Source: Buxus sempervirens | Taxonomy: Eukaryota > Streptophyta > Magnoliopsida > Buxales > Buxaceae | NCBI GenBank assembly: GCA_947561395.2 | Contig: OX387183.1 | Span: forward strand, 37,368,901 to 37,432,900 | DNA length: 64,000 nucleotides | Direction of reading: 5' to 3' | Shown: positions 4,635 to 63,767 of the stretch, in pieces | Layout: each line of letters starts with the position of its first letter | Position numbering within the stretch: position 1 is the first letter of the stretch | Notes under the pieces: model-generated | What the model saw: the letters and a program-made list of their open reading frames with translations, nothing else | Told to the model about the DNA's origin: nothing | Databases searched by the model: none | Position numbers and translations under genes: made by a program

Positions 4635-6890
4635 TGTCAACACCTCATTTTTTCACCCCCAAAAATGAAAGAATGAAAATCCTAACTAGAACGGTCAAAC
4701 CCTGAGGAGTCGAAAGTTGACCTTTTGATCTGATGCAAATCAGCCCCCATGCTTCTTCCCTTTGAATAGAAAATTCCGATACAGTTCCAACGCAATTGAG
4801 TTTGCTGGAATCGGGGTCTTGGAGAAGAAGATATAAGCAAAGCCAGATTCCGGGACGTGGTTTTGCACTTTTGCCAAAAACCTAAATTTGCTGTCAAAAT
4901 TTAGCCCAGTGTATATGGAATCTCAACCTGATTCCAAAGCCACTGAACTTGCTAAAATCAGACATCAGATGGCGAGGTTATGACAAGTCAAAGTTTAAGA
5001 AAAATTGCCCACGTGGCAGGGGAGCAGAAAAGGACAAAACAAATAAAAATCGGTAATAAAATAATCATTTTTATAAAATATCTCGATTTTTACTTTTTAA
5101 ATAAATAAGAAAATTGGATAAAATTGGAAAAAGTTCATCAAAATGGGCAAAGATTTGAGTTCCGCGCAATTAAAACGTGCGCATCCGCATAGTATGTGCG
5201 GACATGCCTTGTCTGTACATACAATGCGGATCCGATCTTATCCATATCGCCACATGGCAGATTCGTTTGGATTGCACACATGCAAAATTTATCCGCACTT
5301 GGTATGCGGACAGGGCCAATCCACATACTAAGTGCGGATGAGGCTAGTCTGCATACTATCTGTGGATCTGGCCTGTTTTTCTCTATAAATAGGGCCCACA
5401 GCCCCCATTGTCCAAGGTTGTCCATCCCTTTCATCCCCACCTACCCTCCTATAACCAGTAAGCATCTATACCCTTTCTCACCCTTATACCTCTACCGAAT
5501 TCCTATTTTTACCCTTTTAATCACCCTTTTTATCCCCTTTTTCTTTCCTACTCCTTTGAAGACAAGAAGGAGGCCATATTTGGGAACCAAGGGAGGTTCC
5601 AAGGTGCTGTCCACATCTACCTGGAGGCCATCACACATCCAAATAGTAAAATAAGCCCAAGGTGAGAATCTTTTATAAACATGCTTCCTTTGGTTGCTTT
5701 CAACTTATTTTTTTTTTTTATGATATTATTTCTCACCATTATTTCTTCTTTTGCAAGATGTTGGAGTCCTCATGATAAGGAGGAAACTCCATACAAAGAT
5801 GGGAGGAGGGTTATCTTTATAGGGTAAAGAAAAGTATCATCCAAGCAAACTAGCATGTTATGTCTTTGCTATAATTTCTTTAGGAGGGCCTATCCTCCTT
5901 CATCTATCCATTGTACCCCTAACTTTCTCCCCCTCCTTCCTTTCAACTAGGAATAGTTGTTTTATTTATTTCATATGTTTGCTTGTTTTGCATATTTTTC
6001 ATTTACGTCTATAACCATACACAAGAGCACCTTACACTCACCTAATCATGCATTTCCATGCATTGTTCAGCATGCTATCTTTTTCTTATGAGTATCAAAA
6101 TAAGCATTATATACACACGCAAGTAGTATTTTTAGGGTAAGATTAGGTTCTCTTCCGATTAACTTTCTTTATCTTATATGAATAGTAGTAGGTATCATTT
6201 CCCTTAGCACGTCTTTACTATTGATTTGTGTGCATGATCACCTCACCCACCCACTATTTTCACATACTTTCCAAGCCACCTTCATGCATATGTGTCATTA
6301 TTAATTGCTTCATGCGCTAGTCCTTGTTGGCTTGAGTATACATAAGGATGGATTGGTCGAATGGAGTTTAATCTAGGCCTTTCAGGCCATCTACCTCATT
6401 CCGTCATGAAGGAAAGGGAGGGAGCATTTTTTATACCAAACAGGGACTTCTAGAGTCCTTGTTTTAAGGCTCTAATGGCTGCTCAAGAGCAAGGATCCTT
6501 TCCATTTTGGAAAACTTCATAAAAATAGTGCTTTTAGTCAAAAATGAGGCATTGAAACCACTGTGGGTCTGCTCAGAGACCCATAGCAGGTCGCGGAGAC
6601 CCCTAGGAAGGAGACAAGTGGAAGCCCCTGGCCACTTTGGCATTTCTGGGTTTTCGAGCCGGGTCCGCAGATACAGTATGGACCAGACCCAACCGCACTG
6701 TATGTGCGGATAGGTCTGGTCTGCCCAGGATATGCGGACAGACCTAGTGAACCCCCAATTTTCATTTCTTTGGGTCTTGGCCCACCCGGTTCAACCCAAA
6801 TCATGTTGATAAGACCCCCTAGGGTCCCTGGGTCAACCAAGACCCCCATTTTGGCACCCAATTTTGGTTTTATCAAAAATCCCCAAATTA
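4635..6890 (+). mobile_element. 3' LTR of Ogre/Tat element B, right part missing
   Basis: The LTR starts TGTCAACACCTCATTTTTTC next to the polypurine tract. It has the Ogre-like LTR plan: 5' module with 'CAGTTCCAACGCAATTGAGT' near 4793 and a second copy near 4930, a word array (5168-5375), TATA box, an AAGGTGAG motif near 5651, the conserved 'CTTTCAGGCC' segment near 6397 and a second word array (6655-6745). The usual LTR end (hairpin, PBS-like motif, ...GCACA) is absent before an inverted LTR fragment begins around 6890; the exact break is uncertain by tens of bases. Confidence 0.8.
5384..5391 (+). promoter_or_regulatory. TATA box of the B LTR
   Basis: CTCTATAAATAGGGC is a textbook plant TATA context, placed about 750 bp into the LTR directly after the word array. 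Confidence 0.7.
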
Positions 6891-8980: not shown

Positions 8981-11900
8981 TGTAAGCACCTCATTTTTGC
9001 ACCCACAGGAGTGCCGAAAATGAAAACCCTAGATGAAAAAGTCAAACCCTAAGGGGCAAAATTTTGACTTTTTGATCAAGTGATAATTGGCCACCTTGCT
9101 TTATTTCAATGGATAGATAATCCCGGCACAGTTCCAATGCAACCGAGTTTGCGGAAATTGGAGCCCAGATGAAGGATTTATGCGCCGGTCAAACTTGAGG
9201 GGAAGCAAAAATGGACTTTCTGCTAAAACCCGAATCAGCAGCTTAGCCCTGCCCCATTAAATAGAGGACTCCGATACGGTTCTAACGCAACTGAGGCCCA
9301 AATCGGAGTTCGGATGAAGAAGATATGAGCAGTTGAAGTTCTAGGGCAGCAATGCCGGAAATTGCATACGTGGCAAAAGAACTGCACATGTGGCGGGAAA
9401 CGCAGATAAATATCTCAAGGATTAATCCGTAAATATCCAAAATATTCAAAATATCTCAGGGATTGAACTGAAAATGCGTAGGCGCAATCTGCGATTATCT
9501 TAGGTGTCAAATCGATCAAATCGGTCAAATCCGGGGGGCAATCTGTAAATATCAAAATTTCACCTTTTTGATCCGACAAAATATGCTGGATATAAACAAA
9601 TTTGTTCATATCCGACATAATATGCCAGATACAAAAAATCTTCACCTAAATCTTGTCAGATTTTCCAACAGATTTTCAGCGGCATTAAATTTTTGAAATC
9701 ATTGTGTTTTTATCCGACATTTTATGTCGGATACAAAGAAACTTCAGTGTATTTGGCCTCCATGGCCGGATACATGCAACTTATAGTGTATCCGGCCATC
9801 AAGGCCCGATACAAACTTGTGTCTATAAAAGGGCAACAGCTGCCCATTTCCAGGGTTGGCTGCCCATTTGCTGGTTTCCCCTCTTCTCCGCCTTTTTTCC
9901 TGCTTCAAAATCCTTCCCCTTCCTTGCCTCCCAAGTCCCTAAAACTCCACCTAGAGTCCATCCTACCCTTCTTTATCTTCTTCTTCTTCACTTGAGCTTG
10001 GAAGGAGAACAAAGGTTGGTGTTCTTGGTGCCAAAAGAGGGAGTTCCAGCTACTTCCTTGCTTTGAGGAGGTTCAACACATCATACTAGGGTTCATTAAC
10101 GCCAAGGTATTGTCCCTTACTACTAGTTGTTTCACATATATGAATATGAGTTGATTTCAAGCATGTTTTAGGATTCTTGTATTTCTTGTTTGGAAGGTAT
10201 CTTTTAACATGACTTATGTATCTTCTTCTCATTTCCTTCACATATGATTCTTCCCATGGTAAAGGGAGTGCGTATGGCTCCAAGGGAGGGGGTGGTCCCA
10301 TTTTCTTTAAGCATGGTTTAAAGGTCTTTATGGTGTCACATTGTTAGTGATTGCTCCATTCGAATGGGGGAGGGTTGTTCCCCCTTTGTTTGATCATCTA
10401 TTGTACCCCATCTTAACTATCCCCTCTTTCCCTTCTTCTAATAGCCTTGCTTGGGTGATTGTGGTTTTTTTTGAGCATGTAAATGGTGATAGGGTAGGTT
10501 GTTTTGTGCTAGATCATAGGGGTGTATGTATGGTGGATGTGTGCTCCTTAAGTGTCTTCATGTTAAGTCCCTTTAGCTATTTGTAAGTAGTATGCATGCT
10601 CTCCTTTACAACCATGTTCACACATGAAGCATGCTCACTTGCACACACACTTTTGTTTCATGCACAAAAATCTATAAAAATGCGTGTGTTTCTCATGGTT
10701 TAAGAATATGCATATTAGGTTTAGTTGCTTGGTTCCTTTTGTCCTGTGAGTGGGTTGATATGTAAGATGTGAAGAACCAAGACAGGGACAAGTAGTTCCC
10801 TGTCCCATTGTCGAGCCCTCCAAGAAGCCTAGAAGCTTGGCCCCCTTTGAAAGTCCGGAAAAACCTATTCTGTGTGTTGATCCGACAACTCAGGTCGGAT
10901 CAACAAGGCCTCGTTTGTAGCTTGCCAGGGATGTCGGCTACACTGATTTTTATGTGTAGCCGACATCACAAGTCGGCTACATATGCTCTAGTGTGTAGCC
11001 AACAACTCAGGTCGGCTACACTGTGAAATTCCAATTTTGTTCTTTTTTCTTAATTTTATGTTATTCTCATGTTTTTTTCTTTTGATCAAACAGATGAACC
11101 GGTTGGGTTTCCGGGTCGCCCGGAAACCCAAAATGGGACTGAGACCATTCCGGTCCAATTTGGTACGTGGTGGGCTTTCCAACGGGGCCCATCAAGCCCG
11201 ACCAACCCACTAGCATGTAAATAAGCTAACCAAATCAATTAAGTGGGCCAGACCTTTCGAGGCCCACCCAAAGCCCAAAAAGGAAGCATACAGGCTTAGT
11301 TTAAGTTGTGGTTTGGACGAGACAGCGGCCAGGGCCTACCAGGCTCGCCAAGCCCATTAACCAAATCTGAAGGGTCAAAACCCTAATTCCCTAGGCAAAG
11401 GGCCCCAAGCCCAAAGCCTAGCCCGTTTTGGCATGGATTAAGCAAGATAATTTAAAATACTTGGCATCCATTGTGAGGCCCGCCCAGGGGCCCACAAATC
11501 AATCCAAACCCGCTTTGCATGAAAATCAATTTAATCTTAAACTTGAACTTTCAATAAAACCAATTCATTGAACCAAAGCCCAAAGGGCCTCCTAGGCTTA
11601 GACTGAGGCCCAACCAGGGGACATGTGGGCTCAACCAAGCCCACCAAGGAATCCGTGGGCCTTCCAATGAGGCCCGCCCAACCAGACCCATCTCACTTTA
11701 AGCTAAAAGATAAAATCAACCAAAAGGGGGACCCACACCACTTTGGCGATCCCCAAAAAACTCAATAAAATGTGCATGTTGGAATAGGAATCGGGGTGAG
11801 TAGACTAGAGTTGACTCAAACCAGGAAACCCATGGGACCCGTTAATCGATGGGCGAACTGAGGTGTCTACGGACTTCCCCAGACTTTAACCGAGACCTTG

Positions 11901-12058
11901 CTTAAAATCTTTAGCCACAGCTTAATAGAAAAACTTAGGCACCTAGGTGTCTGCCTGCACCCCATCAGGCAGTGGCGACTCCAATTTCCCGAATTACCCA
12001 TCCGGAGGCACGCACTCTCACGTGCACCTCGTGGTGCAATGTTTCCAACATGTGCACA
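8981..12058 (+). mobile_element. Ogre-like solo LTR, perfect target duplication CGGGC
   Basis: It begins TGTAAGCACCTCATTTTTGC and ends ACATGTGCACA. CGGGC flanks both sides (8976-8980 and 12059-12063), and the interrupted LTR outside joins cleanly across it. Inside are two 148-bp-spaced 5' modules (9130 and 9278), a word array of the ATCCGACA/TGTCGGAT type (9565-9820), TATA box TCTATAAAAGGGC (9824), CCAAGGTATTG (10102), a second word array of the CGACAACTCAGGTCG type (10870-11025), a segment shared with family A (GGGTTTCCGGGTCGCCCGGA, 11105), and the end hairpin plus TGGCGACTCC (11975). At 3078 bp without an internal region it is a solo LTR. Confidence 0.93.
9824..9830 (+). promoter_or_regulatory. 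TATA box of the LTR at 8981
   Basis: TATAAAA in GTCTATAAAAGGGC, directly after the upstream word array. Confidence 0.7.
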
Positions 12059-32308: not shown

Positions 32309-32319
32309 TCTCTGATACC
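32309..32319 (-). other. Primer-binding site of the SIRE-like element
   Basis: Minus strand GGTATCAGAGAGG; with the bases beyond the later LTR insertion (35840-35842) it reads TTGGTATCAGAG, complementary to the 3' end of initiator-Met tRNA, three bases from the LTR end. Confidence 0.85.
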
Positions 32320-33080
32320 TGTAAGCACCTCATTTTTGCGTCTCCCAAAATGTAGAAAATGAAATTTTAATTGAAAAGTCAAACTTGAGAAAAGTCAAAC
32401 TTGAGAAAGTCAAAAAGTTGACTTTTTATCTGGTGCAAATCAGTTGCCATGCTTCCCACCATTGGAAAGAGGATTCCTATACGATTCTAATGGAATAGAG
32501 TTTGCTCAAATCGGAGTCCAGATGAAGTAGTTATGGACTAGTCAAATCTGAGAAAAGTAGAAATGGACTTTCTGCTAAACCCCAAATCAGCTACCTCATT
32601 TGATACCAGCAAAAAGAGCATCTTGACACGATTCCAACGCAACTGAGTTTGCTGGAATCGGAGTCCCGGATAAGGAAATATGAGCAAAATCGGCTCCCGG
32701 ACGCGGCCCGGCACTTCTGCTAAAAAACTCGAATTTGCTGCTAAACTGAAATTCAGTGGATAGGGAATCTCGTAGTGATTCCAACGCCACTAAGTTTGCT
32801 AAAATCGGATATCAGACGAGTGAGTTGTGAGCAGTTGAAGTTTCTGAAAATCTGCACACGTGACAAACAGTGAAGAAAGAGCAGCAAAATGAAAAGTTTT
32901 GAATTAAAAAATAATATTGTTTGCTAAAAATCTAATTAAAGTATTTAAAATAAAAGAAAAAGAAAAAAAATTAAAAGATGCATGTGCATCCAAAACTTAA
33001 AACAAAAAATCCCAATATAATAATAATAAAAAGTACATAAAGAAAAATAGAAAATAAAAAAGAAAATAAAAAATATGTGG

Positions 33081-33114
33081 TTGGACGAATTCTCCATGTG
33101 GAGAATTCGTCCAA
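33081..33114. promoter_or_regulatory. Perfect 16-bp inverted repeat with a 2-bp loop
   Basis: TTGGACGAATTCTCCA, TG, then its exact complement. It lies about 75 bp before the TATA box of the LTR at 32320, the place of palindromic words in related LTRs. Confidence 0.9.
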
Positions 33115-33189
33115 GCCTTTCCAAGCAAACTTAGAAAGGGTTAAGGTTTTGGTTGTGAAAGGGAAAAGTAATTGGCTTTTAGTCAAGGC

Positions 33190-33197
33190 TTATAAAA
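33190..33197 (+). promoter_or_regulatory. TATA box of the LTR at 32320
   Basis: TTATAAAAAG in AAGGCTTATAAAAAG. Confidence 0.6.
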
Positions 33198-36100
33198 AGA
33201 AAAAACCTAGCACAAAGAGAGGTCGATTGATTTTTTTGGGAGATCTCTCCCACCTCTCTCACTCTCTCCCATCTCTCCCAAGCTCTCCCATGGCTGCCCC
33301 CTCTTGTGCACCTCCATTTTGTCACCTCCACTCACCCAAATTGATCTCAAGGCCTCCTACCCTCTTCACCCTTGGTTCTCAACCCAAGAAACATACTTGA
33401 AGCTCCTTGGTGCTAGGAGAAGAAGAGCTTGAAGTGCTGCTCCAGCCAAAAGGAGGTGCTACCACTCCACTCAAGGGTTCAAAAACCCCAAGGTGATGTT
33501 CCCTATGGCCTTTTGTTCTTGATATATGAAAATGAGCTCCATATGAGCATGTGTTTTCACCATGTGTTTCTTACCATTTCAAGCATGCCATCCTCTCCCA
33601 TTTTGTTCCCCATGTGCATGTCCTCTTGATGTTGTTGTTGTCACCTTCTCATGCTCATTTGATGGGTGGTCAGCCCCACATGGCAAGAAAGGTAAGATGC
33701 CGGTAGAATAAAGAGAGGCTAGGGAGTAGTTTGGTGGGTTAGAGAGACCTTGCAACCACCATTCGGCTACTATTTTGGCTTTCGTCATGGAGGTCTATTC
33801 TTCAAAGAGTGGAGCATGTTCCATTCATGTGTGCCATCTAATGTAACCCTAAAGTAACCCCCCCTTCTATTCCCTTCTTTATGTGAGTCTTCTCTTAGAA
33901 CAAAAGCATGATCTAGATTGATATTGTCATGGTAAAGATCATGAGATGCATGCTGGAGTTTATGTCTTATGTTTGGTCATACATAGTCTAGTTGCTGTCT
34001 TGTGCATGCCTAGTCGTTATCATGTGAATGCATAATACCCTCTTGATTGTTCTTTAGAATTTCAAGCATACGTGCCATGATTTGTAGGGTTATAAAATTG
34101 CCTCATTTTGCAACTATTTTCACATGTTCTCATGTAGGTTTCTATCATTTTTTTATCATTGTTTTGTGATCATGAGGAGCCAACGCCTTTGCTTGTGCAT
34201 CCCTATGTGCTTGCATGGATTTTCATTTGCTGGAAGCATGCTTAGTTGATATGAGTAGGTCACTGTTTGGGTGAAGTATGCATGCGATGAAAACAAGATA
34301 TTTTTTGCTCTTAGGTGGCCCACTTTCTCGTATAATCCAACCATGCTTTGAAACATGTGTTTTATCTTGGTTTGATGTCCTCCTATGTGCACGCATGTTT
34401 GCTCATTTTTCCGAAAGCCAAAGACCGAAATAGGGATGCTTGATCCCTGTTCAAGTTCTGTCCCTTGCAAGAGAGAGGAGAAAGGGAACCCCCACCCATC
34501 CCCTTGTTGTTTTGATTTTGAAAACCCCAAAAGAAAAGCCAAATGGCTTCATCTGGACCATTGTGGGCCCCCACAGGGGCCCACACAACTACTGAGACAC
34601 CCTAAGAACCCAAGAAACCAACCACATTGGAAAAATCCAAAAAAATGGATTCTGTATGTTGATCCGGCAACTCAGGCCGGATCAATAGAGATCCGTTTGT
34701 AACTGGCGAAGAATGCCGGATACACTGTCCTGTGTGCGTAGCCGGCATCTCAGGCCGGCTACACTGCCAGAATTCATTTTTTTGCCATTTTTGCTGATCT
34801 TGTGTGATTTTTAGGTGTGTTTGATCAAATACGGGCGAACCAGAAGGGTTTTCGGGTCAACCGGAGACCCAAGATGGGCCTTGGACACCCGGTCCAAATT
34901 GATTCCCGGTGGGCCTTACAACGGGGCCCACCAAGCCCGACAAACTCCTTTTGTTAAATAAAGATAAAATCAATCCATTTGAGTGGGCCACATCATTGGA
35001 GGCCCGCCCAAGCCAAATTTTGAAGCATGTTGATCTAGACTTAGGCATGGTGTGGCCGAGACCATGGGCAGGGCCTGTCGGGCCCACTAAGCCCATTAAA
35101 CCAAACAAGTGTAGGGTTTCAAAACCCTAACTCAAGAAGCCTTGGGCTTTCAAGCCCAAGCCCAGGTAAAGGGCCCCAAGCCCAAATCCTGGCCCACTTT
35201 GGAAACTTAAGCAAGATGAATCTCAAATCACTTGGCAAACAATTGTGGGGCCCACTCAAGGGCCCACAAAGCAATCCCGGCCTACTTTTGGCATGAAATC
35301 CATTTAAATAATCCAACTTAAACCTTAAAGTAAAATCAATTCATTTGAACCAAAGCCCAAAGGGCCTCTTAGGCTAGACTGAGGCCCACAAGGGACACGT
35401 GGGCTCAACCAAGCCCACCAAGGAATCCGCGAGCCTTCCAACGGGGCCCGCCCATGCAGACTCATCTCACTTTAAGCTAAAGAAGATAAAATCAAATAAA
35501 GGGACCCACACCACTTTGGCGGTCCCGCCAGACTTAACTAAATTGAATGCTGGATTAGGAATCGGGTGAGTGAGAGACCAACTAAGTTGACTCAAACCAG
35601 GGAAACTTATGGGACCCGTCACTTGATGGGGTGGACTGGGGTGTCTACGGACTTCCCCAGACCGCAACCGAGAACCTACTTAGAATCTCAAACCGCAGAC
35701 CAAGCCTTAGTAGAAGAACTTAGGCACCCAGATGTCTGCCTGCACCCCATCAGGCAGTGGCGACTCCGAACAAATCCCGAGGCACGCATCATTTTGCGTG
35801 CACCTCGTCGTGCGACCGAAATCGAGTGCGCACAATACCAATTGAAAATTTTGATACACCTAGAAGGGGGTGAATAGGTGTTGCACAGTGGAAATTAAAA
35901 TTTTCTATTTAACTAAAGACAAGTCCTTAATTAAATAGGCATGCACAAGTCCTCAAAGTAATTCTAGAAAATAATAGCCAAGTAACAGGCTACCCAAATT
36001 GCAAAATAATCAAAGCATATAAAGCAATAAACAAGACAAGCAATTTGGTGATGAAGGGAAAACTTTATGAGAACTCTCACTAGAGAAAAACCCTCTGAGC

Positions 36101-37463: not shown

Positions 37464-39991
37464 TGTGCGCACCTAAAAATGACTAGATCGCACACGAGGC
37501 GCACGTGTAAGTGCATACCTCGAGACTTTCGGAGTCGCCACTGCCTGAGAGGTGTAGGCAGACACAGGAATTGCCTATCCGGGTCTAAGTCTGGTCTGCG
37601 GCTTATTAGAGATCTAGCTAAGTCCTCGGTTACGTCCGGGGAAGTCCGAAGACACCCCAGCTCGCCCCGTAGTTTTGACGGGTCCCTCGGGTCTCCCTAG
37701 TTTTTGAGTCAATTTTCACCCTTTCCTAGACTAGCCTGCCTCTTTTTAGTCTGTTGGGGGCCCTCTGGAGGTGTGGGTCCCTTTTATTTTATTTTATTTT
37801 TTTATTTAAGTGAGGTGGGTTTTATACGGGCTCCGTTGGAAGGTCCGTGGATTGCCAAGTTTGGGCTTTGGCCTAGTAGGGTTATTGGGTAACCCTATTT
37901 TGGTTTATTTATTTATTAAACAGGCTAAAAGGGTCTACTGGGCTTGGTTTTGGCCCAGAGACAATTAAGGAGGTGGCCTTGGGCCTGTTTGTTGAAAATG
38001 GGCCTAGTTTAGGCCAGTCAGAATGTGGGCCCAGGGTGTCTTGGTGGGCCCATCTAGGCCCATGGTCTATAAATGGGCTAAAAATAGCCCAAACAGCAAA
38101 AAGGGTGGGTCAAGCCGGTTCGGGTCAGAACAAATCCAACCGAGCCAAAAAATTAGATTTTTTAAGCTACTTTAAAAACTGCCCGTATTTACTATACGGG
38201 CTGACCTAGACCGTAAATACAATACAGTTCAGGCTTAACCGTATAGTAAATACAGGCACACCCAGACTGCACTACATCTACGGGCATCTGCTCGATTTCC
38301 AATTTTCATAGCAATTTTCATGGGAGCCGATTTTTTTGTTCTTTTCTTGCATTTTCCAGCCATTGTTAGAGATTTATGGCATCTTCATGGTGATGTAGCT
38401 TCTTCACTTGGCCTCAAATTGTTTTCTTTCCATCTTTTGTGCAATTTTTCAAGAAGTAAAGATGCCTTTTGATCATCCACATCCGCTTTCAAGAAGAGAA
38501 AGAGAAGGAGAGAGTGAGGGATACATTTATGATGGGGAGACGATGGGGCCTTCACCTTTCTTTTGGAAATCAAGTGAGCAAAAATCATCACAAAACGTTA
38601 GTTAAATGAGTGATGCATCTTATTTTCTCCATCTTTTGATACGTGAGCTTTTCTTATCATGGGAACTCAAAGGTCATGCATAATAAACAAAACATGGTTA
38701 GAAAAGACATAATACTGACAAATGGTAAATGAAAAAAATGAAAACTAATAGAATAGCTTGATTTTTCTGTATGTTAAATAAAAGGTGGTAAGAAAGCTTA
38801 CTACACTGATATTCTCCTACTTTGATGTGTTGTGATTCTCCGGGAAATTTTGGCAGTGCTTCCGCACTCCTGTTGGTTTTCCAAAATGAATTTGAAAAGG
38901 GGTTCACTAGGTTTTTATGCTAAAAGGGTGAAAAAGGGAAGCTTAGGCAGGGTCTAGGGGCAAAATGAACATTTAGGTTGAGGTTGGCAAAGTGGGGGCA
39001 GGGTTTGGACATGGAAAAGCTAAAAAAGGAGAGGAAGAGAGCTAAAGGGGGGCCAACCTCTCTTGAGTGGAAATCAAGGAAGAAGGGAGAAGGGGGGGGG
39101 GGGGGGGGCAGCCTTTTATAGTTGAAAAAGTGACCTAAAAAAGAATTTTAATCACTTTTTTCAACTGAATTTTAATTTTATATTTAACGTAACTAAAACT
39201 TAAATATTTTTTATTCTTATCTTTCCAACTCATGGTTATCATTCGAATGTGGTTGATATTTTTTTGTTTATTTTTTATTTATCTTAATTTTTAGATTCTT
39301 TAAGATTTATTATTATTTTATTCTTAAGATTTTTTTTGTCAAAAATGCATGTGCATTTTCTATTTTCCATTTTATTTTTGATTTAATTTAATTGTTAGAT
39401 ATTTACAAAATATTATTATTTTATTCGTAGATTTTAATTTTTTATCCTTTCTTCAATCTTGCCACATGTGCAGATTTTCCAAGATTTTTGACTGCTCATA
39501 ACTTTCTCATTTGATATCCGATTTTAGCAAACTTAGTGGCGTTGGAATCAGGTTGAGATTCCCTATCCACTAAGCTAGAGTTTAGCAGCAAATTCGGGCT
39601 TTTTAGCAGAAGTGCAAAGTCGCGTCCCGGAGCCAGTTTTGCTCATATCTCCTTATCCGGGACTCCGATTCCAGCAAACTCAGTTGAGTTAGAATCGTGT
39701 CGATGCGCTCTTTCTGCTAATTTCCAATTGAGCAGCTAATTTGGAGTTTTGCAGAAAGCCGATTTCTGCTATTTCCAGATTTGACCAGCCCATAACTTCT
39801 TTATTCGAACTCCGATTTGAGCAAACTCAGTGGCGTTAGAACCGTATCAGAATCCTCTTTCCAATGGTATGAAGTTTGGTGGTCAATTCTCCTTAGATGA
39901 AAAAGTCAACTTTTGACCCCCTCAAGGTTTGACTTTTTAGTTTGACTTTTTATTTTCTTCATTTTAGGGGTGTAAAAATCAGGTGTCTACA
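37464..39991 (-). mobile_element. Ogre-like solo LTR, minus strand, duplication GTATC/GTATT
   Basis: Minus-strand start TGTAGACACCTGATTTTTAC at 39991 and end GGTGCGCACA at 37464; flanks GTATC (37459-37463) and GTATT (39992-39996) match 4/5. Three 5' modules spaced exactly 147 bp (39541, 39688, 39835), minus-strand TATA ACTATAAAAGG (39112-39122), downstream word copies CCGTATAGTAAATACAG (about 38190-38270), and the end hairpin with GGAGTCGCCACTGCC (37529). This is the fourth nesting level. Confidence 0.9.
39092..39108 (+). repeat. Run of 17 G
   Basis: G-only run beside AAGGGAGAAGG, just on the transcript side of the minus-strand TATA box of the LTR at 37464. The length is likely to vary and to be read poorly by sequencing. 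Confidence 0.8.
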
Positions 39992-42278
39992 GTATTTTAG
40001 GTCTATATTGAAGTTTAAGAATAGGTTAGGTTACCCAAAATCATATCTAAATAGGTTGTGACCTCTTTTTACTTAAAATATCTCTAAAAATTTCATATTT
40101 ACAATCATCGTCCCAAATTACTATTCTTTAATTCAAATTTAATTCCGCCACTTCTTACATCTCAAATTAACCTAATTACAGGTGTTACAACTTTAGAATT
40201 TATAGAAAAATCATTAAAAATTAAATCTGGGCACAAATCCTAAAATCTGGAATTTCTGACATAGGTCACTCGAAGAGGCGCTCGAGCGACTGTTCTAGCG
40301 GCTATAATTTTAGGTTCTGTTTTAGATACACAGGCAAGTCGCCCGTGTCTGCGCTCGAACGATGTATCAAGCGACTTGTTTCCAATGTTCTGGTTTAAGG
40401 TATACAGATAGGGCACTCGAGCGATTGTTCTAGCACTCTGCCCAAAACTCCGTTTTTCTGGGTTTTTCATAATTTCCGAAACTTCTCAAATTCCTATGGC
40501 TTTAAATTGTTTCTAAACATCTAAATTTCATTCCAAATTACTTCTAAGATAATCATAATCAAATCTTGGTGATTAAAATTTATCTAAGATTTCTTTCTAA
40601 ATTAAACCACTCATGAGCAACACTTTTCTTGATTCTTAAAGAGAGATTTTAAATCACCAAATCAAAACTTTTATAATCATCCGACTTTTTCAATGAAATC
40701 CAACTTAAAAACCAATACGATCAAACATCAAAATCACAAGAAAACATGTTGTTCCTCCAGTTTCAAGTGTTTGCTACTTGCCTTTTTGATGAACCCAGAT
40801 TTGTTGAAAACTCCTTTTGTGCCCATTTTATGATCTCGATAACACCCCTATATACTTCTCCAATTCAGATCTCCACCATTCAATGTGAAGTCCTCCATGA
40901 GTAGATCATCACCCTAAAATTTCAACCCATTCCAACAGTTGGATCTTCCTATCTCGTCGTTCGAAGTTGGCTAGTCGACTATCTCTGCAACTCCCTTTTC
41001 TTTCTAAATATGATTTTCCACCAACTTCTGGGTTAGTTCGCACCACCTTAGACTCCTCCAAATCCGATCTCTACTGTTCAGATTAAAGTATCTCATGTAT
41101 AGATCATAACCTCAAAATTGCATGACGATCCAACAACTGGATCTCCGGGGATCGTCGTTCAAAGTCTACTGGTTGGACCCTGCAGCACCTCCCTTTCTCT
41201 TTCCTCTCTTTTCTCTCATTCTCTTCTTCCTCTTATTTTTCTCCAAGCCTTAGCACGAATTTCCCTCTCTTTTCTCCTTATTTTTGACTTGCTGAAAACT
41301 CTAAATCTTTCCTAGACCTCCCCTTTTATAAGCTCTCTTAATTAGAAGTTCACTAGGTTTAGGAGACCTTCTAAATAAGATTCCCACTCTTAATTGGAAA
41401 CCTTCTTATCTTAACCCTCTTTCTAATTCATCTTTTAAGTATCTTATACAAAAGAAGGATTTATTTTAATTTATTTTCGTGGTAATTTAATTTCTTATTT
41501 TAAAATATTACTAAAACACCCCAAGGCTCCTCTTATCTTTAAATTTAAGGCTCCTTATCAACCATAATCATCAATATACCATTTTTCCTACTTTTAAGCC
41601 ATAATTTGTTATTTAAATTCAAACTTAACCCAAATTAAGTCTAGTTAAATATTTCAAGTCTAATAATTATTTACTTACTCAATATATTAATTTGACTAAT
41701 TGGAAAATGACTAAAATACCCTTTCCTTGAAATTCCATATTTAAGCTTTGGATCTTTTTCAAAAAATTCTCCTCTTTATTTCTCACATCAATCTTAACCA
41801 TATAACGCACTTGGATTAATACCTATCTTCACCAATCCTTTATATTTAAATCACTCTCCCAATTTATCTAAATAAACCTTGCTCTTTCCTATTTAAATGA
41901 AGCCACTATTTAAATTCCTAATTACTCAAAATTATTGTTTATTTATTTAGTTACTAATATCTCTTTGGATCATAATATTATTTCTCCAATACCTAAATTA
42001 AATCTTAACTTCTCAATATTTAGGCTTATTTAATTTAGCTTTTTTTAGGAAAATCCAGGGTTTTACACTTTTCAAGCTTTTGAAGAACCCTTCAGATTTG
42101 CAACCCGCGACATTCTAAAACTCCGAAGATCTCCTCAAACGATCACAACAAATGACCATGTTTGGTACTATGGGAACTCCAACGTGCAATTCTTCCCAAC
42201 CCGGGACTCCAAGGATTTGAACAAGGAAGAATAGAAGAAAGAGATGGCTCAAAGAAAGAAAATAAGTATGGAGATTTT

Positions 42279-48022: not shown

Positions 48023-51000
48023 TGTAACACCCCGGATCCAGTTCAACAACCAAACTCAGAGTTTTAGTATGAATTTCGGGTCAGAACAAACTAAAATTTA
48101 TGCAGAATTTAAAACTTTTAATTATATCAGAGTAAAATTGGAAGCATATATTTAATTCAATTTAATTGTGAGCACGATGATTCGTGGTGCATGCGATGTG
48201 ACGAGGAGAGTGGAAGTCACCACTGCCTAATGGGGTGTAGGCAGACACCTGGATGCCTAAAGGATGTCTATTAAGTAGTCTGCGCATTGAGATTCTGGGA
48301 AAGTGTCTAGTTACGGTTCGGGAAAGTCCGTAGACAACCCGGTCTGTCCCGTCAAAAACATGGGTCTCACAGGTTATCCCTGGTTAGCTTTTAGTAAATC
48401 AACCCATTTTTTACCTCACCCATCCTAAGCCAGCATGCTTGCTTGATTTGCTCTTTGGTGGAGACCACATGCATGGTGTAGGTTCCATTTATTTATTTTT
48501 TTAGACCATGTGATCTGAGTCTAAGTGGTGGGCCCCATTGGAAGGCCCACAGAATGCCAAGTGAGACTAGAAATAGCCTAGGTCCCCTTAGGGTTGCTGT
48601 TGGGGTAGAACCCCTTCTGGTTTAAGCTTATTTGGGTTAAGGATGTAATTTAAGGGGGAAGAGGATTGGTTCTTCTTAGACTTTTTAAATGATTGTGGGC
48701 TCGGGAGTGGCCCACAGAGCAGTCCATTTAGTCAAGGATCCATTTACTAATGGATCTTAGGTGAGGCAAAAGGGCGGGCCCCGTTGGAAGGTCCGTGGGA
48801 AACCAGGATGGGCTTGGAGTGAGCCCAAAGACCCAATTTGGGTCTGGGGACCCTATTGGTATTTAGGTTTGCTTTAAGGATTGATTTTAAACCAATTCAG
48901 TGCCAAAAATACGAATTTGCAAACTTTTTGTACACAACCGTAAAATTCATGCGGTTCTAGCAAAACAGTATAGATCATACAGTCCTAGCGAAACCATATA
49001 GATCATACGGTCCGGCCAAAACCGGCCTAAGTTTACGGTTTACACAAGAATTAAGCAAATTTGATTTTTTTAGGGGGAGTTTTGGAGTCCCCTTTTCAGG
49101 TGAGACTGATGGCATGTGTGAGTCACGCGTCTGGCCCACAGAAGGCTTCAAATTGATTTTTAACCTTATCTAGCTCATTATTCTTGGTGATTAAGCCAAA
49201 TGATGTAGGGAGAAGGGCTTGGAACTCCTTCTTCCTCTTCTGAGAATGTGTCTTAGGTGCTTTGGAGTGGGGAAGAGATTCCCTCACTTCTGTTTCAAGC
49301 AAAGGACATAGCCTCTTATAGAGGTAGGCTAGTCAAGAGGCCCGAAAGGCCTTGTGCTTGGATCAACGGCCAAACCATGATGCATTCCCAATCAACAAGC
49401 CAACCATGACATCAAAATGCAAACATAAAAACATCCAGCACATGCTTATAATCCATGATGTGTGCACTATATATGGCTGTGTACACAAGACAAAGAAGAC
49501 TTAGTATCATGCATTGAATGATAAAAAGGGACTTGCTTCTATGTGTGTTAACATAAATGTGCACTGTGATGTGTTCTTAGAGTGTGAAGGCATGCCTGAA
49601 ATCGAGATAATGCATACAATAGATCCTCAAAACAGTGATTGAAAAGCACACTTCTACACGTCTACCTAAACCAACGAAACCAAGAATTAAAGCATGCACA
49701 CCAATGGAAATGACATCCAATAAAAGGAACAAAATAAGCTAACTAGAGAAAGGAGACAGGGGGATTAAGGTTACATTCGTCCAGATCTGGGGGAAGAGAA
49801 TTAATGGCACTTTCTTAGTGCTTAAGTGACCTTAAATAGCCTTGAAACATCTCAAAAACACCTCACCCTCTTGTACGACAATCATGGCATCTCTTACCTT
49901 ATATGAGCCATCTACTTGAGGGAGAAAGTCACCATAACAAAGGGGATATAAAAAAAAGCAATCCAAAGATGTGGAGACCAAAACATGCTTCTCATTTAGA
50001 TAAAATCAAATATGTTGCATTATGATCATGAGATAAAGGTTACCTTGATGGAGGGGAGTACTTGGTGGTGATTTAAACTCCTTGGAAGCCTTGGCAGCAA
50101 AGTGAGTCCTTCCTTTTCCCCCAAGAGAGATCCTTCTTAGTTAGGATGAAGAAGGAGTAAGAGTTGGTGGAGTTTGGAGTGATTTAAAAATGGTTTTGAT
50201 GTGTTTAAGGGTTTGAAGAAGGAGAACAATGTGATTCAGAGGTGGGAGCTTCAGAGAAGAAGGAGAAAAAGTAGTATAAAATCACCAACCTTAGCTTCTG
50301 TTTTAGGGTTTGCAATTTATAGTGCACAGATAAAAAACCATATGTACTGTACGGTTTGGTCAAAACCGTATAGTCCATACGGTTTTGCCGTGTCCGTATA
50401 TATCATACGAACGCGTGCGGTTTTTTCAACATTAATTAGGGGACAAACTCTTACGCGTGCAGCGTGTCAATCAGTGTGCTAAAGGCGTCCGTACTGTACA
50501 GTACGGACGCTTTAAATCCCACTGAGCGTCACGATTGACTGCTTGGGTGACGCGCCGCAAATATCGACCGTATACTACATACAGTTGCGAATTCTCTCCT
50601 TGGTTGGCTTGACTTGACGGCTGAGGTGACTTAGCTGCCCACTCCGGATGAATCGGGTTTTTTCGATTCTTTATTTCATATTTATCTTAATTAATTTAAT
50701 TAAGATAGTTAAAGCTTTTAATGATATGTCCTTTGTTCTGTATTTTCCCTGTTTTTGCTTTTTAGCACTTAAATTTGTCATTTATTAGGTAAGGCTCGCA
50801 CACTTGCCAAGTGATGGGTCCTCTATGCTTAATTACCATTTTGCCCTTGGGGTTGTTTTGCTCAATTCTTCTCCATCCGAACTCCGATTCATGCAAACTT
50901 AATTGCGTTGGAACCGTGCCAGGATTCTCTATCCATTAGGATATGGTATGGCAATCAATTCCAGCTCAGGTAGAAAGTCACTTTTCGCTCCTTAGGGTTT

Positions 51001-53732
51001 CGACCTATCTTTTATGGTTTTGCTTTCTGGCTTTTTAGAGGGGTGCAAAAATGATGTGCTTACATTAATCAAATTAATTTATAATAAGAATCTCTTTATT
51101 CTAAGTGTAGTCTATGGTAATTACCACAATTCTACCCATGAGTACACTATCCCAAATTTAACGATCTCTCCAAGCATACCTAAAAAAAATAGGGGAAAAC
51201 AAAGTGAGATATAAATCTCAACAAGTATCAAGGTGCATGCAATTGAACAGTCTATTTTATGAAATAGTCATGAGGTATAACAATAAATCAAAGCAAAAGC
51301 AATAATTCAAGTCCATGAATACAAATTCAATATAAACGATAAAATATACACAAAACCACATGTGACATCACAGGACTCATGAAGCAAGATAAGTCTTTGA
51401 ATAGACACTCTTCATTGCTATGCCACCATGCATCTTATGAGTGAAACTAGTAAATCCTCAAACCCGAATCTTAGTCTAACAGTAAGAGGCCTAAACATTG
51501 ACTTATTGCGCACGAAACTCATAGAGTTCGACACATACCACCAGTATGCAACACCTGAATCAATTCATGGAGATGGCTGCTTATCCTCACATACAAGGTA
51601 CTCACCAGCAACATAAAAACTGGAAATGAGACCTTACCCCCAATGCAAACTAACTTGTAAAGAAAGCGCAAGCGCAAATTGGGAGTAATCAACCCAAATA
51701 AATACCCCTCCACTATCTAGCTTAGCCTATGGATCCATATACAGCTATGCCCGCTAGACACAACTTACACTTATTACAATTTATTCTATTTACAATTGAT
51801 TACCAATTCTTATGCATATTTCCGTAAACCATGATCTCCACTATAATAATTCAAATCAATTATCGTAACTCATTTTCAAGTGATATACATGTCTCAAATC
51901 TTTTTAACCCAAAATCAATCCCGTTGAGAAATGACAATCAAAACCACGAATAAATCTCCAAACCAGATTCTATAAATATTGAGACACCCAAAACATAATT
52001 ATTAAAAGTTTAGACAAGTTATAGTTCACATTCATGAGCAAAATAAGATTTCAATGACTTGACTATAACTTCCCCAATTAACTACTTATTAAGATCCAAA
52101 ATTTCTATAATTATAACCTAAGGTGTTAAGTTTTATAATTTCTGTTATCTTTCAATTTCAGTAGATCACACAGACCCATATTGAAGCTTAAGAGTTGGTA
52201 CAAATCCCCAAGTTTATGTTTAACTTAATCTGATACACTATTTCCACAACCTTGTCCTTTAAGACACCCATTGGCATTCATTGTTCCAAATTATTAGTTT
52301 TAATACCTAATTAAATTTCGTAAGTTCCTAAACCTCAATTTAACTCCTTTACAGGTGTTACAATAATTAAATTACTAGGAAAAATTATGAAACATTAATC
52401 TAGACCTAAAATCCCCAAATTCTCAAATTCTGACATAGGTCGCTTGGCATGGTCGCTCAGGCGATCGTAATGAGTGCCCATTTTAATTTCGTCAAATTTC
52501 CCAGTTTTTACGATTTTCTAATTTTTGGGTTATTTCATTGATTTTAATCGTTCTAAATTTATTTGTTATTGACCTAAATCACACCTATAACACTCTAGAC
52601 TTATTTGTATCAATTAATTGCAATTCCTTGGTCATCTAAAAAGATCAAACCTATATTCTTTAATACTTTTATACTTTTCTTTCAAGAACATGTAAACTCA
52701 TCGATGAAAACCAAATGTGTCCATGAAATCTATTTTCGTCTAATCAAATCAATCCGGAATAAATCAAAAACACAGAAATCATGCAGTTCCTCTAATTTTC
52801 AAGTGATTGCTACTTGCCTTATCATGCAAAAATCCATCTTCTCTTGAATCCGATATTGAATCTGAACTTCTGTTATTTTTCGCAACAATCTAAGGTTCTC
52901 CAAACAAGATCTCCACCGTTCAAATTGTAGTCCTACTAGTCATGAACAAAACCTCCAAATTTGAGGTCGATCCAACAGTTGGATTTCTCCTGATCTAATT
53001 TTGATGGCTGCTGGTTGGGGGTTTCTGCAACAGCTCCTTTCTCTTGTGACCTTTCTATTTTTCTCTTCCTCTCTCTCTTCACTCTCCAAATGTAGGAGTT
53101 ACCTTTTTCTCCTCTTGTTCCCCTATATAACTTGACTAAGAGAAACCCTAAACTTGCTTTAATGACTTGCTTAAATAGACCAACCTTAGAGAAGTTCAAT
53201 TAGGATTAGGAAACCTTCTAATTAATTCCTACTTTCTCTCCTCCTTCTAATTCTCTTTAGTACTTTACCTTTTAAGTCCCTTACTAACTAAACTCCTTCC
53301 TTTATCAAATTTTCGTTCATATTTTATATCTATTTCTAAATATTACCTAAACACCCTATTTAGTCACTTTTTCTCCAAATTAAGACCACTAATTAAGTAT
53401 AATTACCCAATTGCCCTTTTTCCCTTCTTTTATGCTATAATTATTACTACTTAACTTCAAACTTAACCCAATAAGTTTTAAACTTATATTCTCCAATTCT
53501 ATTACTTATTTAATAATTTAATTCATCAATTGCCCATTTGGAATTTACTAAAATACCCTTTTCTTCTCCTAGATTGATTTCCTTTGAAAATTATCTTTTA
53601 TTTACAAATTATTAATTTTATTTGAATTATCAATCCTCTAAATTTTTATTCTTTTATATCCACAATACTCAAACCCTATTTTCTTTTATTTATTTATGCC
53701 TTAATTATTATCCAAAATTTCGGGGTTTTACA
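48023..53732 (-). mobile_element. Family D LTR, interrupted by an Ogre-like solo LTR
   Basis: Plus-strand ends TGTAACACCCCGG (48023) and CGGGGTTTTACA (53732). Pieces 48023-48176 and 51065-53732 total about 2.8 kb, the family length. The minus-strand TATA box TTATATAGGGG is at about 53125-53136, and a small word array GGTCGCTTGGCATGGTCGCT at 52438-52490. The flanking pentamers (TACAA, CCGGA) do not match, so it is either part of a larger element or a recombined junction. Confidence 0.8.
48177..51064 (-). mobile_element. Ogre-like solo LTR, minus strand, perfect duplication TTAAT
   Basis: Minus-strand start TGTAAGCACATCATTTTTGC at 51064 and end CATCGTGCTCACA at 48177; TTAAT at 48172-48176 and 51065-51069. 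One 5' module (about 50910), upstream word array CCGTATAGTCCATACGG and CGTACTGTACAGTACG (50340-50590), a minus-strand TATA-like CTATAAATTGC (50312-50322), downstream word array with CCATATAGATCATACGG (48940-49045), conserved 'CGAAAGGCC' segment (49342) and the end hairpin (48218-48240). 2888 bp, no internal region. Confidence 0.92.
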
Positions 53733-55217: not shown

Positions 55218-55399
55218 TGTAAGCACCTCATTTTTGCGCTCCCAGAAAAAAAAAAACAAAAAATGCAAACCCTGGACAGAAAGTCAAACCCTAAGGGGTG
55301 TGTAAGCACCTCATTTTTGCGCTCCCACAAAAAAACCAAAAATACAAACCCTGGACAGAAAGTCAAACCCTAAGGGGTTAAAAGTTGACTTTTTGATCA

Positions 55400-56095
55400 A
55401 GTGAAAATTGGCCACCCCGCTTTATGCCATTGGATAGAGAATCTCGACACGGTTCCAACGCAACTGAGTTTGCAGGAATCGGGGTCCGGATAAAGGTTCA
55501 GCGGGCGGTCAAACTTAAGGAAAAGCCAAGAGTTGACTTTTCCTCGAATTCCGTGCCAAGTACCTTGCTTTATGCCATTGGATAGAGAATCTCGACACGG
55601 TTCCAACGCAACTGAGTTTGCAGGAATCGGGGTTCGGACCAAGGTTCGGCGGGCGGTCAAACTTAAGGAAAAGCCAAGAGTTGACTTTTCCTCGATTTCC
55701 GTGCCAAGTACCTTGCTTTATGCCATTGGATAGAGAATCTCGACACGGTTCCAACGCAACTGAGTTTGCAGGAATCGGGGTCCGGATGAAGGTTCTGCGG
55801 GCGGTCAAACTTGAGCAGAGCCAAAAGTTGACTTTCTGCTAAAATCCGATCCAGAGACCTACCCCTAGGTCATTGGATAGAGAATCTCGACACGATCCCA
55901 ACGCAACTGAGTTTGCAGGAATCGGGGTCCGGATGAAGGTTCTACGGGCGGTCAAACTTGAGCAGAGCCAAAAGTTGACTTTCTGCTAAAATCCGATCCG
56001 GAGGCCTACCCCTAGGTCATGGGATGGAGGGCTTCGATACGATTCTAATGAAACTAAGTTTGCCCAGATCGGAGTCCGGATGAAGGAAATATGAG
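55400..56095 (+). repeat. Five tandem 147/148-bp modules in the LTR
   Basis: The core GGTTCCAACGCAACTGAGTT or a variant begins at 55451, 55599, 55747, 55894 and 56041, spacing 148, 148, 147, 147. Each module also has ATTGGATAGAGAATCTCGAC, AATCGGGGTCCGGATGAAGG and GTCAAACTT(A/G)AG blocks. The first three are close to identical, the last two more diverged. Confidence 0.92.
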
Positions 56096-56428
56096 CTGAC
56101 GAAATTCCCGGGCAGCAAAACCGGCAATCTGCGCACGTGGCAAAAAGCTGCACACGTGGCGAGTTGCGCAGGAAAATATCTCAGGGATTAAATCCGTAAA
56201 TATCCAAACATACGAAATATCCCAGGGACTAAATCCGCGAAAATCCGAGAATATCGGATTAAATCAAAAATTGCTAGGGACTAAATCCGAATTTTTAGAT
56301 TTTTACGTCCGGCGAGCGGCGGCATTAAATGATTTTCATCATTACGCCGCTCGCGCGGACGTGGCGAGCGGGTTTGCGCCCACCTTGAGCTGGGCGCCAA
56401 GGTGAGCGGCACCCCCTTTTTTCTCTCT

Positions 56429-56436
56429 TATATAAG
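56429..56436 (+). promoter_or_regulatory. TATA box of the family A LTR
   Basis: TATATAAG in CTCTCTTATATAAGCC, directly after the upstream word pair. Confidence 0.7.
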
Positions 56437-59053
56437 CCACGCGGCATTTCGCGCAGAGGGGTTGGAAAATTTCGAAAAAAAAGCTAAGTGTTGGAAGATT
56501 TTTTTGGTTAAAAAGTTTTGGCTGTCAAGACTTCTGTTGGCCTTCCCTCTTTCGTCCGAGCTCCCTCTGGGCTCATCCCTCATTGACTCCTGAGCTCCCA
56601 GAACACCCCACCCGCCTGATCACCCCTTTTCCCCTTTGTCTTCTCCACTGTCGCACGAAGCCTAAAAAAGGGGAGGTTGCTGTTGGAGGTAAGGAAGGAA
56701 GCTCCAGCACTTTCGTCTCAAGGAGGATTCGTCTCAAGGAGGAGCCTCCACCCTGCACGTGAGCTTACAGAACCTCAGGTATTGTTCCCCATCTATTTTT
56801 ATTTCACATATATCAAGATGGGAGTTATCTAAGCATGCTATCGGGCTTGTTCTTTCTCTTTACTGTAACATGCATGTTCTTGTATTTTCGGTGACACGGA
56901 GGTCTCCGAGGGTAAGGGAGACCCATGAGGATGTAGGAAGCTTGGCCATCCCACTTTAGACCACCCTGGCCACTATTCGGAGAGTTATTTTTTTTTTTTT
57001 TGGTTGATCATTCAGTAAAGTAAAGGGAGTCTGTTCCCTCGCTTCAAACACGTCTTTTGTATCCCTGTAACCCCCCTTCGACTTCCCTTCTTCGGATGTT
57101 AGCGTGCCTTCGGATATTAGTGTGCATGCTTGAGGTCCAGCCGGTTGGAGGAAAATGCATGTAATGTCTGCATGCTGTTTTTTTTTGTTTTTATTGTGCT
57201 GTACTTGCTAACATGCCCCCCAACCCCCTGCCTATGCTGCTTGCTCCTTGTGGTGCCCCTGTAAGCATGCTCCCATCACCCCCCTTTTTTTTTAAGATAT
57301 TAATGCATCTGTACCAGTTTTTTATCGGGTTTGTTTTCTTTTAAGAGGTTTTGGGTTGTAGGATGAAGCATGAAGCATGTTTAGATTAATTTGAACGCAA
57401 GTCTAGGTGCCTTCTGGGGAGTGGTCGAAGCCCGGGGAAGTGTTCTGGGCATATTATTCGTGAAGTATTTTGAATGCATGTTTGCATTGTGAGTTTTCTG
57501 GGTTTTCAAAACTTGAAATAAAATGTGTTTAGATTAAATCCAAAATTAGTTGGGAGGTGTTTTGGGCATGTTGGGAGGCCAGTGGAACAGTTACAGACCG
57601 AAAAAAGTCGGCCAGAGTTGGAGATCTCAAAAAAACAGAGAGTTGAAAATCGCAGCGAGCTGCCGCCCACCTGGCGCTCACCTGGCGCTCACCTAGGAGG
57701 TGGGCGCCCCTTTCATCTCACTTCCCGCCGAGCTGGCGCCCACCTGGCGCTCAGCTCGCGCCTACTAAAAACCAAGCGAAATTCTGGCGCCCTTCTCGCG
57801 CCCATCTCGCGCTCATTTCCCGCCCAGCTCGCGCTCACCTGGTATCGGGTGAGCGCCAGGTCAAAATTTCGCCCGGATTCTGGCGCCCATCTGGCGTGAG
57901 CGCCAGGTCCAAAACATGCCGAATTGTTATTTTTTTTGAAAATTCCAAAAATACCCTTTACCATACCGCCCCCGGGTACCTCCCCTTGGACCCAGCACAA
58001 TGAGCTAGTTTTTTTTCTGACAAAGTGTCCATCTTGTGTTTTTTTCTGTGATTATTGCTAGATTTGAATGCCATTTCCGAACCGGATAAACCAGTAGGGT
58101 TTCCGGGTCACCCGGAAACCCAATGTGGGACTTGGACCCCCGGTCCAACTTGACTTCCAGTGGCCCTTCCAACAGGGCCCACCCAGCCCAATAAACACCA
58201 AAGCATGCCATTAAATAACTTAAGTAAAAACGAACAATTTGAACCGGGCGGGCCAAACCCAATACGGCCCACCCGAGCCTTGTTATGTGAAATTGATGCA
58301 TGAATTGCGTGGTTTGGCCGAGACCAAGGGCAAGGGCCTACCGGGCCCGCCAAAGCCCACCAACCGAACCAAGGAAGGGTGCAAACCCTGATCTCTGGTA
58401 ACTTGGGCTTACAAGCCCAGATTTGGACTACGGGCCCCAAGCCCAGTGTCCAACTCACTTTGGCAGATTAAAAAGATAAATCCAATAAAAATACTTGGCC
58501 ACCATGTGGGCCCACCTTAGGGGCCCACAAACCAGTCCGGCCCACTTGTGCATGAAAAACACTTAATCTTCAAATCTGAACTTAAAGTAAAATCAATTGA
58601 ACTAACCAAAGCCCAAAGGACCTCTTAGGCTAGACTGAGGTCCACAAGGGTACACGGGCTTCACTAAGCCCACCAAGGATACCGTGGGCCTTCCAACAGG
58701 GCCCACCCAACCAGACCCAGATCTCCTAATTAAACAAGATAAAAGCAATTAAAGGGACCCACACCACTCAGGTGGTCCCGCCAGACTTAACCAAACTGCA
58801 TATCGGATTAGGAATCGGGTGAGACCAATGGAAGCTGACTCAAACCAGGGAACCCACGGGACCCGTCATCCGACGGGTGGACCGGGGTGTCTACGGACTT
58901 CCCCAGACCGCAACCGAGAACAGACTTAGAATCTCAAGCCGCAGACCAAAAGCCCTAATAGACAGGATTAGGCACCCAGGTATCCGCCTGCACCCCATCA
59001 GGCGGTGGCGACTCCGAATTACCCCGTGCCGCGTTTCCCACGCGCGCACAGCC

Positions 59054-63640: not shown

Positions 63641-63767
63641 GCCAGTGAACGAACTGGAGATTGGTTGAGGTACGCCTGGGTGCTGCTTTTCAGCTCACCC
63701 CCTGCGGAGACCCTACATTGGTCCAACCCTATGATTCTGAGCTCAAACAAAACCCCTTTAAATTAAA

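Follow-up and report, generated by a model that had tools for sequence, protein, structure and literature searches.

Paired arrays of 17-bp CCG..CGG dyads in a superfamily of long terminal repeats in Buxus sempervirens

Long terminal repeats (LTRs) of one superfamily in the Buxus sempervirens genome carry arrays of 17-bp dyads of the form CCG-xy-N7-y'x'-CGG, in which letters 4 and 5 and their mirror images vary, and several of these LTRs hold such arrays at two sites, one before the TATA box (upstream, U) and one after it (downstream, D when used of a site). The window, which is the whole stretch of 64,000 nucleotides analysed, was placed at C3:37368901-37432900 within the 676.5-Mb genome and contains six LTRs of the superfamily (A to F, Table 1). 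Their opening few hundred bases share about 68-77% pairwise identity, and the last kilobase is common to A, C and F at 71-76%. The words of B, C, D, E and F follow the dyad frame, with inner letters AC (and GC) in C, CA in B, TA in D and E, and GC in F. The original prediction placed palindromic words before the TATA box of C and about 1 kb after it, and saw the same plan in A, B and the LTR at 48177 (D); U and D words were located in all four, and the observation is real and more extensive than first noted.

Table 1. Positions of the LTRs and their features, numbered from the first letter of the window
Feature	Position	Strand	Details
LTR A	55301-59052
LTR B	from 4634		only start fixed
LTR C	8981-12058	+	start TGTAAGCACC
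LTR D	48177-51064	minus
LTR E	about 37488-39992	minus
LTR F	32319-35815
C upstream array (U)	9573-9808		CCGRC-N7-GYCGG dyads at 9573, 9612, 9714, 9753 (degenerate), 9792; steps 39, 102, 39, 39
TATA box of LTR C (TATAAA)	9824-9829	+
C downstream array (D)	10877-11020		10-base arms TTGATCCGAC / TGTAGCCGAC, N7 between arms, N12 between words; words at 10882, 10960; degenerate at 10921, 10999
B upstream array	5185-5370		CCGCA-N7-TGCGG, 28-bp register
B downstream array	6655-6740		CCGCA/TGCGG half-sites
D upstream array	50330-50590		CCGTA-N7-TACGG, 28-bp register
D downstream array	48930-49050		CCGTA-N7-TAYGG type
A upstream words	56300-56412		GCGCYCASCT type, outside the CCG-N11-CGG frame
A downstream words	57640-57915		GCGCYCASCT type; partner copy 237-390
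E downstream array	38181-38288		CCGTA-N7-TACGG
F downstream array	34653-34768		CCGGC-N7-GCCGG
Extra ORF of the A element	60745-62004	+	plant mobile domain (PF10536) overlapping DUF7745
29-bp palindrome TTGGGTTTCCGGG..CCCGGAAACCCAA (GGGTTTCCGGGT..ACCCGGAAACCC)	11103-11131 (C)		shortly past the D array; also A 58097-58121; weaker in F, about 34846-34870

The words had been taken as unrelated among families, a view that has to be given up, since B, C, D, E and F use one CCG-N11-CGG frame and differ in the inner letters. Six letter classes occur in this frame, namely AC, GC, CA, TA and AA in the loci read and GT in the genome list, and the first D word of F differs from that of C by one letter pair (CCGGC-aactcag-GCCGG versus CCGAC-aactcag-GTCGG). 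The spacing is exact: 30 C-type loci contain 75 copies of CCG-N11-CGG and 30 B-type loci contain 46, while each of the other spacings between 5 and 19 gives 0-17 and 0-5 copies, respectively (the window LTRs are included in both sets). Genome-wide, with LTR and non-LTR DNA pooled, TCCG-N11-CGGA was counted 53,779 times and TCCG-N12-CGGA 2,683 times. The backward controls of these patterns (6,718 and 16,416, respectively) are other sequences and thus a poor yardstick, for which reason the changed spacing is the better control. With inner letters specified, ATCCGAC-N7-GTCGGAT occurs 6,445 times versus once for the backward pattern, and TCCGAA-N7-TTCGGA 630 times versus 140. The constancy of CCG in these counts is partly by construction, because the counts demand it; the CCG..CGG dyads of B, C, E and F had already been recovered by a palindrome scan that did not require CCG. 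Pattern counts covered the genome whole, and DNA searches of the genome scored the best 40 candidates.

The arrays also keep a register. The C register has 10-base arms separated by N7 and N12 by turns, with a period of 39, and that of B, D and E has 7-base arms separated by N7 and N7 by turns, with a period of 28. Among the first 50 genome places listed for the AC word, 18 of the 20 neighbour gaps below 300 bp equal 39 (10 times), 78 (3 times) or 117 bp (5 times), the remaining two being 72 and 103 bp; three more gaps, of 731, 1,625 and 2,216 bp, would be consistent with LTRs bearing two arrays each. The degenerate words of C at 9753, 10921 and 10999 were identified by eye.

Dyads were called with at most one mismatch in CCG..CGG and at least five of eight mirror pairs, and were compared with 1000 dinucleotide shuffles per zone in twelve zones that were picked after the words had already been seen. 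The U zone of C holds 4 dyads against a shuffle mean of 0.03, a count reached in none of the 1000 shuffles, as is also the case for the D zone of C (2 dyads), the U zone of B (2), the U and D zones of LTR D (3 and 2), and the D zones of E (2) and F (3). The single dyad in the D zone of B is weak alone, as 78 of 1000 shuffles reach this count, and by the same criteria the A-U, A-D, E-U and F-U zones contain no CCG..CGG dyad. Palindrome enrichment over shuffled sequence, a point on which the original prediction was to be judged, is present without any choice of zones: the whole window has 38 dyads, whereas 20 shuffles average 10.05 and never exceed 16. Eleven of the 15 exact CCG..CGG dyads of the window lie inside the twelve zones, which make up 2,244 bp or 3.5% of it. 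U arrays lie immediately 5' of the TATA box in A (with other words), B, C and D. With both strands counted, the window has 14 copies of the A word GCGCYCASCT; 2 fall in the U zone of A, 6 in its D zone and the other 6 in the D zone belonging to the partner A LTR, with none elsewhere. The observed/expected ratio of CpG is 0.75-1.72 in the ten U and D zones tested versus 0.32-0.69 in the remainder of the six LTRs, and each of the ten zones exceeds the rest of its own LTR.

The two-site plan of A, B, C and D is absent from the window copies of E and F, which have kept their D dyads and lack U dyads. The verdict on E and F concerns the window copy of each; their 5' ends match 39 further places each, at 90-94% for E and 93-97% for F, among the best 40 scored. 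As E and F are without U dyads and A has another word type, the plan is common and not universal. LTR F has a 34-bp palindrome (TTGGACGAATTCTCC..GGAGAATTCGTCCAA, 33081-33114) before its TATA box, in place of CCG dyads. In a survey of 61 LTRs, where the hits of LTR A represent its backbone and not its words, U hits are present in 56 and hits at both sites in 37. A D dyad lies at most about 200 bp before a conserved post-D block in all nine LTRs fetched through that block, which were chosen from 40 places as likely intact and so do not provide an estimate for LTRs generally. The first 540 bp of C (8981-9520) are common to 26 further LTRs at 81-87%; the middle part of C has no match in 20 of these 26 C-type LTRs, a result in which absence, truncation and insertion of the D array are indistinguishable. 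The C-type LTRs are mosaic, with an unusually conserved 5' end (8981-9520).

We give about an even chance to the explanation that the arrays are control dyads read by a dimeric sequence-specific protein and subject to concerted turnover. Each array would be a run of recognition dyads by which a putative dimeric protein, either a host factor or one encoded by the element, controls the LTR promoter, acting on transcription or on silencing. The geometry of this protein would fix the frame (CCG and CGG 11 bp apart, with a repeat period of 39 or 28 bp), and letters 4 and 5 would give specificity and turn over together at both sites as the specificity shifts, concerted turnover then reflecting a changed reader. 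What argues for DNA dyads read by a dimer is that frame and register are exact, that arrays stand before the TATA box and that separately descended arrays have letters in common. Against this stand the E and F copies without U dyads, a modest concordance within the C backbone and letter exceptions in B and D.

The original prediction also held that the words change together at both sites, an interpretation that is partly supported. The regularity of the frame exceeds what chance would give. Letter vectors of U and D agree at 0.484 within LTRs versus 0.177 between LTRs, a difference reached in 0 of 20,000 permutations (n=35 LTRs; likewise 0 of 20,000 with two nested LTRs included, n=37), and words are in this respect more alike within an LTR, as had been proposed. 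Much of this agreement is descent, because B has almost exclusively CA and D exclusively TA before the TATA box. Within the C backbone only (n=20), the values are 0.484 and 0.326, with 198 of 20,000 permutations (P=0.01); the count is 121 with nested LTRs added (n=22), 985 when the LTRs obtained by way of the D side are left out (n=13, P=0.05) and 61 with stricter words (n=16). The permutation share thus varies from 0.003 to 0.05 with the rows kept, and concordance in this backbone is modest and has exceptions. AA stands at both sites in L032, L034, L037 (one half AC) and, mainly, L022, while U is mainly AC or an AC/GC mix and D mainly AC in C, L027, L030, L129, L131, L132 and L135, and L130 has AC, GC and AA at U and AC, with one half AA, at D. 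Joint change does not extend to L015 and L133 (GC at U, AC at D), to L017, L025 and L134 (mostly AC at U, AA at D) or to L024 (AA at U, mixed at D); in L014 and L026 the hits after the TATA box are stray only.

Among B-type LTRs with both kinds of hit, CA follows the TATA box in 8 of 11 and other letters only in 3 (L045, L046, L047); among the corresponding D-type LTRs the window copy agrees and L105 and L106 disagree (two of three with other letters only). The B and D families, with 12,652 and 20,000 of 20,000 permutations, respectively, are uninformative on concordance within a backbone, because their letters vary too little. A cluster in the genome list, C1:3.386-3.457 Mb, has arrays of a GT/GA class about 3.6 kb apart, which may correspond to U and D. 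The rows comprise 30 C-type loci, one of them the window (L028, L031 and L033 left unextended), 30 B-type loci, one of them the window (14 left unextended), and 5 D-type LTRs fetched of 40 places; L136 and L137 are without a U part, and L011 and L038, with a second LTR start inside, are nested and were left out of the counts that exclude nested LTRs. Sharing of 7/8-mers between U and downstream parts was tried as another measure and was clearly best on the diagonal for A only; at k=7, the diagonal also came first, though less clearly, for B, D and E, C tied with F, and F failed. This generic test was rejected because A+T-rich matches swamp it and the best window of E is not its D array.

The U and D words are separate in ancestry, and the D array is not a recent copy of U. 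Only 2 spacers are common to U (51 kinds) and D (38 kinds) in the C-type LTRs, and the spacer AACTCAG, allowing one mismatch, is present in 13 of 93 D words versus 0 of 192 U words, in which ATAATAT, ATTCAAT and ATTTTAT are commonest. The D words with AACTCAG carry AC in 11 cases and GC in 2, as well as GT in the genome list. Around the kept spacer the C-type LTRs have AC/GT arms, F has GC/GC arms and the genome list shows GT/AC. The letters have switched on both arms of a word with the spacer stable. These results bear on a purely mutational origin, in which tandem duplication and hairpin template switching during reverse transcription would produce the pattern without function. Tandem arrays with letters alike inside many of them would be expected from it, as would arms that match word by word regardless of sequence, and we nevertheless give it a small probability: against it stand one frame across six letter classes, letters shared between U and D despite different spacers and outer arms, and the position of U arrays before the TATA box and of a dyad just before the conserved post-D block in 9/9 LTRs fetched through that block.

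The matching of arms was measured on the four bases flanking the 17-mer, which had not been used in finding the words; 5-base cores were dropped for this purpose because the word filter biases them. The outer arms of C-type D words vary among words (TTGAT, CTGAT, TGTAG, TGTAT, CTTAA and TATAA, given with one extra base) and match within their own word at 0.815 versus 0.535 for others in the array (0 of 5,000 permutations). The same holds for D-type U words (0.724 versus 0.367, 0 of 5,000) and C-type U words (0.874 versus 0.841, 4 of 5,000), whereas matching was not significant in B-type U, B-type D and D-type D words (299, 387 and 2,543 of 5,000, respectively). Adjacent arms of successive words also match, at 0.908 in C-type U and 0.764 in C-type D. 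Complementarity is thus kept beyond a fixed half-site, and arms that vary between words yet match within a word are not predicted by one protein of one specificity. This matching is the chief argument in favour of hairpins or of mutation that repairs palindromes, and it speaks against a plain single-protein site.

Hairpins in the element RNA are a serious rival, although we consider them rather unlikely to be the explanation. The words would form stem-loops, with U in the portion of the transcript that comes from the 3' LTR and D in the 5' leader, and could act as silencing triggers, as packaging signals or, being self-complementary, in the pairing of RNA ends (cyclisation, strand transfer). 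Folding is strong in all six pieces folded (z of -8.8 for C-U, -8.1 for C-D, -4.0 for B-U, -3.6 for D-U, -4.7 for D-D and -5.5 for F-D), the D zones of A, B and D form their strongest duplex with their own U zone among the four tried, and in maize Sireviruses the palindrome clusters are places where small RNAs concentrate, according to excerpts of PMC5311732 and PMC10760457. The D zone of C reaches -82.1 with the U zone of B versus -81.3 with its own, and, with the U zones taken as the starting point, those of B and D form stronger duplexes with the long G+C-rich D zone of A than with their own D zones. Moreover, hairpins need neither the exact half-site distance nor the array period, and the commonest U spacers are partly self-complementary, so that stem and loop lengths vary while the 17-bp frame is constant. 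Mismatches of the A4/C14 type (18) exceed those of the G4/T14 type (6) in C words, the opposite of what G-U tolerance in the sense RNA would lead one to expect, though shared ancestry confounds this comparison.

Under the reading that a dimeric protein recognises the dyads, the reader could have been supplied by the host or by the element. CCGAC is the DRE/CRT core, and DREB-type AP2/ERF or LBD proteins are examples of CCG-core binders among host factors. That the arrays are captured host transcription factor sites, their letter classes corresponding to different host factors, would agree with this core and with the mainly stress-related sites matched by Sirevirus RM boxes in PLACE (excerpts of PMC2829016); six letter classes together with exact 39/28-bp registers would exceed the needs of a standard host site, and we find this origin improbable. 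A self-encoded recognition code, in which a protein of the element would read the dyads at both sites and lineages would switch their pair of inner letters at both and so avoid being cross-activated or silenced, appears unlikely as well; if true, some 50,000 copies of the history of the code would be kept in one genome. One candidate for its reader is the ORF of the A element, which matches the plant mobile domain (PMD) PF10536 (E=5.5e-15), a domain reported for 57% of Ogre elements in excerpts of PMC6317226. In Arabidopsis, a gene set enriched in the promoter motif 'DOWN' depends on the PMD proteins MAIN and MAIL1, and their binding to this motif is left open in the excerpted text (PMC7156037). 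With this precedent the PMD ORF is a candidate reader and no more, and the words of A itself lie outside the CCG frame though A carries the ORF. No relative of the ORF was found in the PDB, and the attempt at a reverse transcriptase-based classification identified no reverse transcriptase of these elements; for the A element, 7 of 16 ORF pieces of at least 60 aa were scanned, over 2 kb, with no Pfam match.

Some further repeats were noticed in and around these elements. The 5' part of LTR A (55419-56086) consists of tandem repeats of about 148 bp with a TGGATAGAGAATCTCGACACG segment in each, and a tandem array of units of about 143 bp with about 95% identity lies past the PMD ORF (62346-63679). 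The motif TGGCGACTCC opens the likely primer binding site after LTR A (59054) and is also present inside LTRs near their 3' ends (1640, 11973, 35758, 37540 on the minus strand, and 59006).

The nearest precedent for the arrays is found in the RM boxes of Sireviruses (Ty1/copia), which are described in excerpts of PMC2829016 as element-specific, CpG-rich palindromes on CGG and CCG before the TATA box, with a second cluster before env in Sireviruses that have env; the initial impression that no LTR part like this had been described is thus corrected. As in the RM boxes so described, multicopy palindromes containing CGG and CCG stand shortly before the TATA box and their letters differ among elements, and the Citrus Sirevirus RM AATCCGGCTWRCCGGATT resembles the GC class. 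The raised CpG observed/expected ratio of the zones agrees with the CpG richness of RM clusters, which form CpG islands. However, the order here is CCG..CGG with a fixed N11 and a 39/28-bp register, whereas the RM boxes of that text are CGG..CCG with short gaps, and the second cluster lies inside the LTR, 0.9-2.1 kb past the TATA box in the LTRs read, and not before env. Both triplets are present in this order in the palindromes of B, C, D, E and F, though not in A, and CGG..CCG pairs occur between the words of the 28-bp arrays. Maize Sirevirus palindromes likewise lie in the regulatory region of the LTR and evolve fast, and they have small RNAs mapped, as excerpted from PMC5311732 and PMC10760457, whereas the arrays described here are known from DNA sequence. 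The element group probably differs from Sirevirus, as far as seen in the A element, which has the PMD extra ORF that is a trait of Ogre (Ty3/gypsy OTA/Tat).

VANDAL elements, which are Mutator-like DNA transposons, offer a functional analogue through their VANC proteins, where the reader is encoded by the element; the dyad reader here is only putative. The VANC target motifs are also short, tandem, non-coding and different among relatives, they evolve with their reader, and binding was shown (excerpts of PMC5735166, in whose main text the word 'palindrom' is absent). In the open-licence PMC literature we found no description of palindrome arrays of this kind in Ogre LTRs, and the excerpted text of the Retand paper (PMC11963269) describes none. 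As far as this literature was searched, the fixed N11 frame with its 39/28-bp registers, the second array within the LTR and the matching of arms word by word are new, as probably is the element group. Tens of thousands of copies in one frame make the evolution of control sites traceable within a single genome, and the letter classes allow asking whether the reader changes with the letters and controls transcription or silencing. The comparison with Sireviruses suggests that their RM-box plan is a recurrent solution in LTR retrotransposons.
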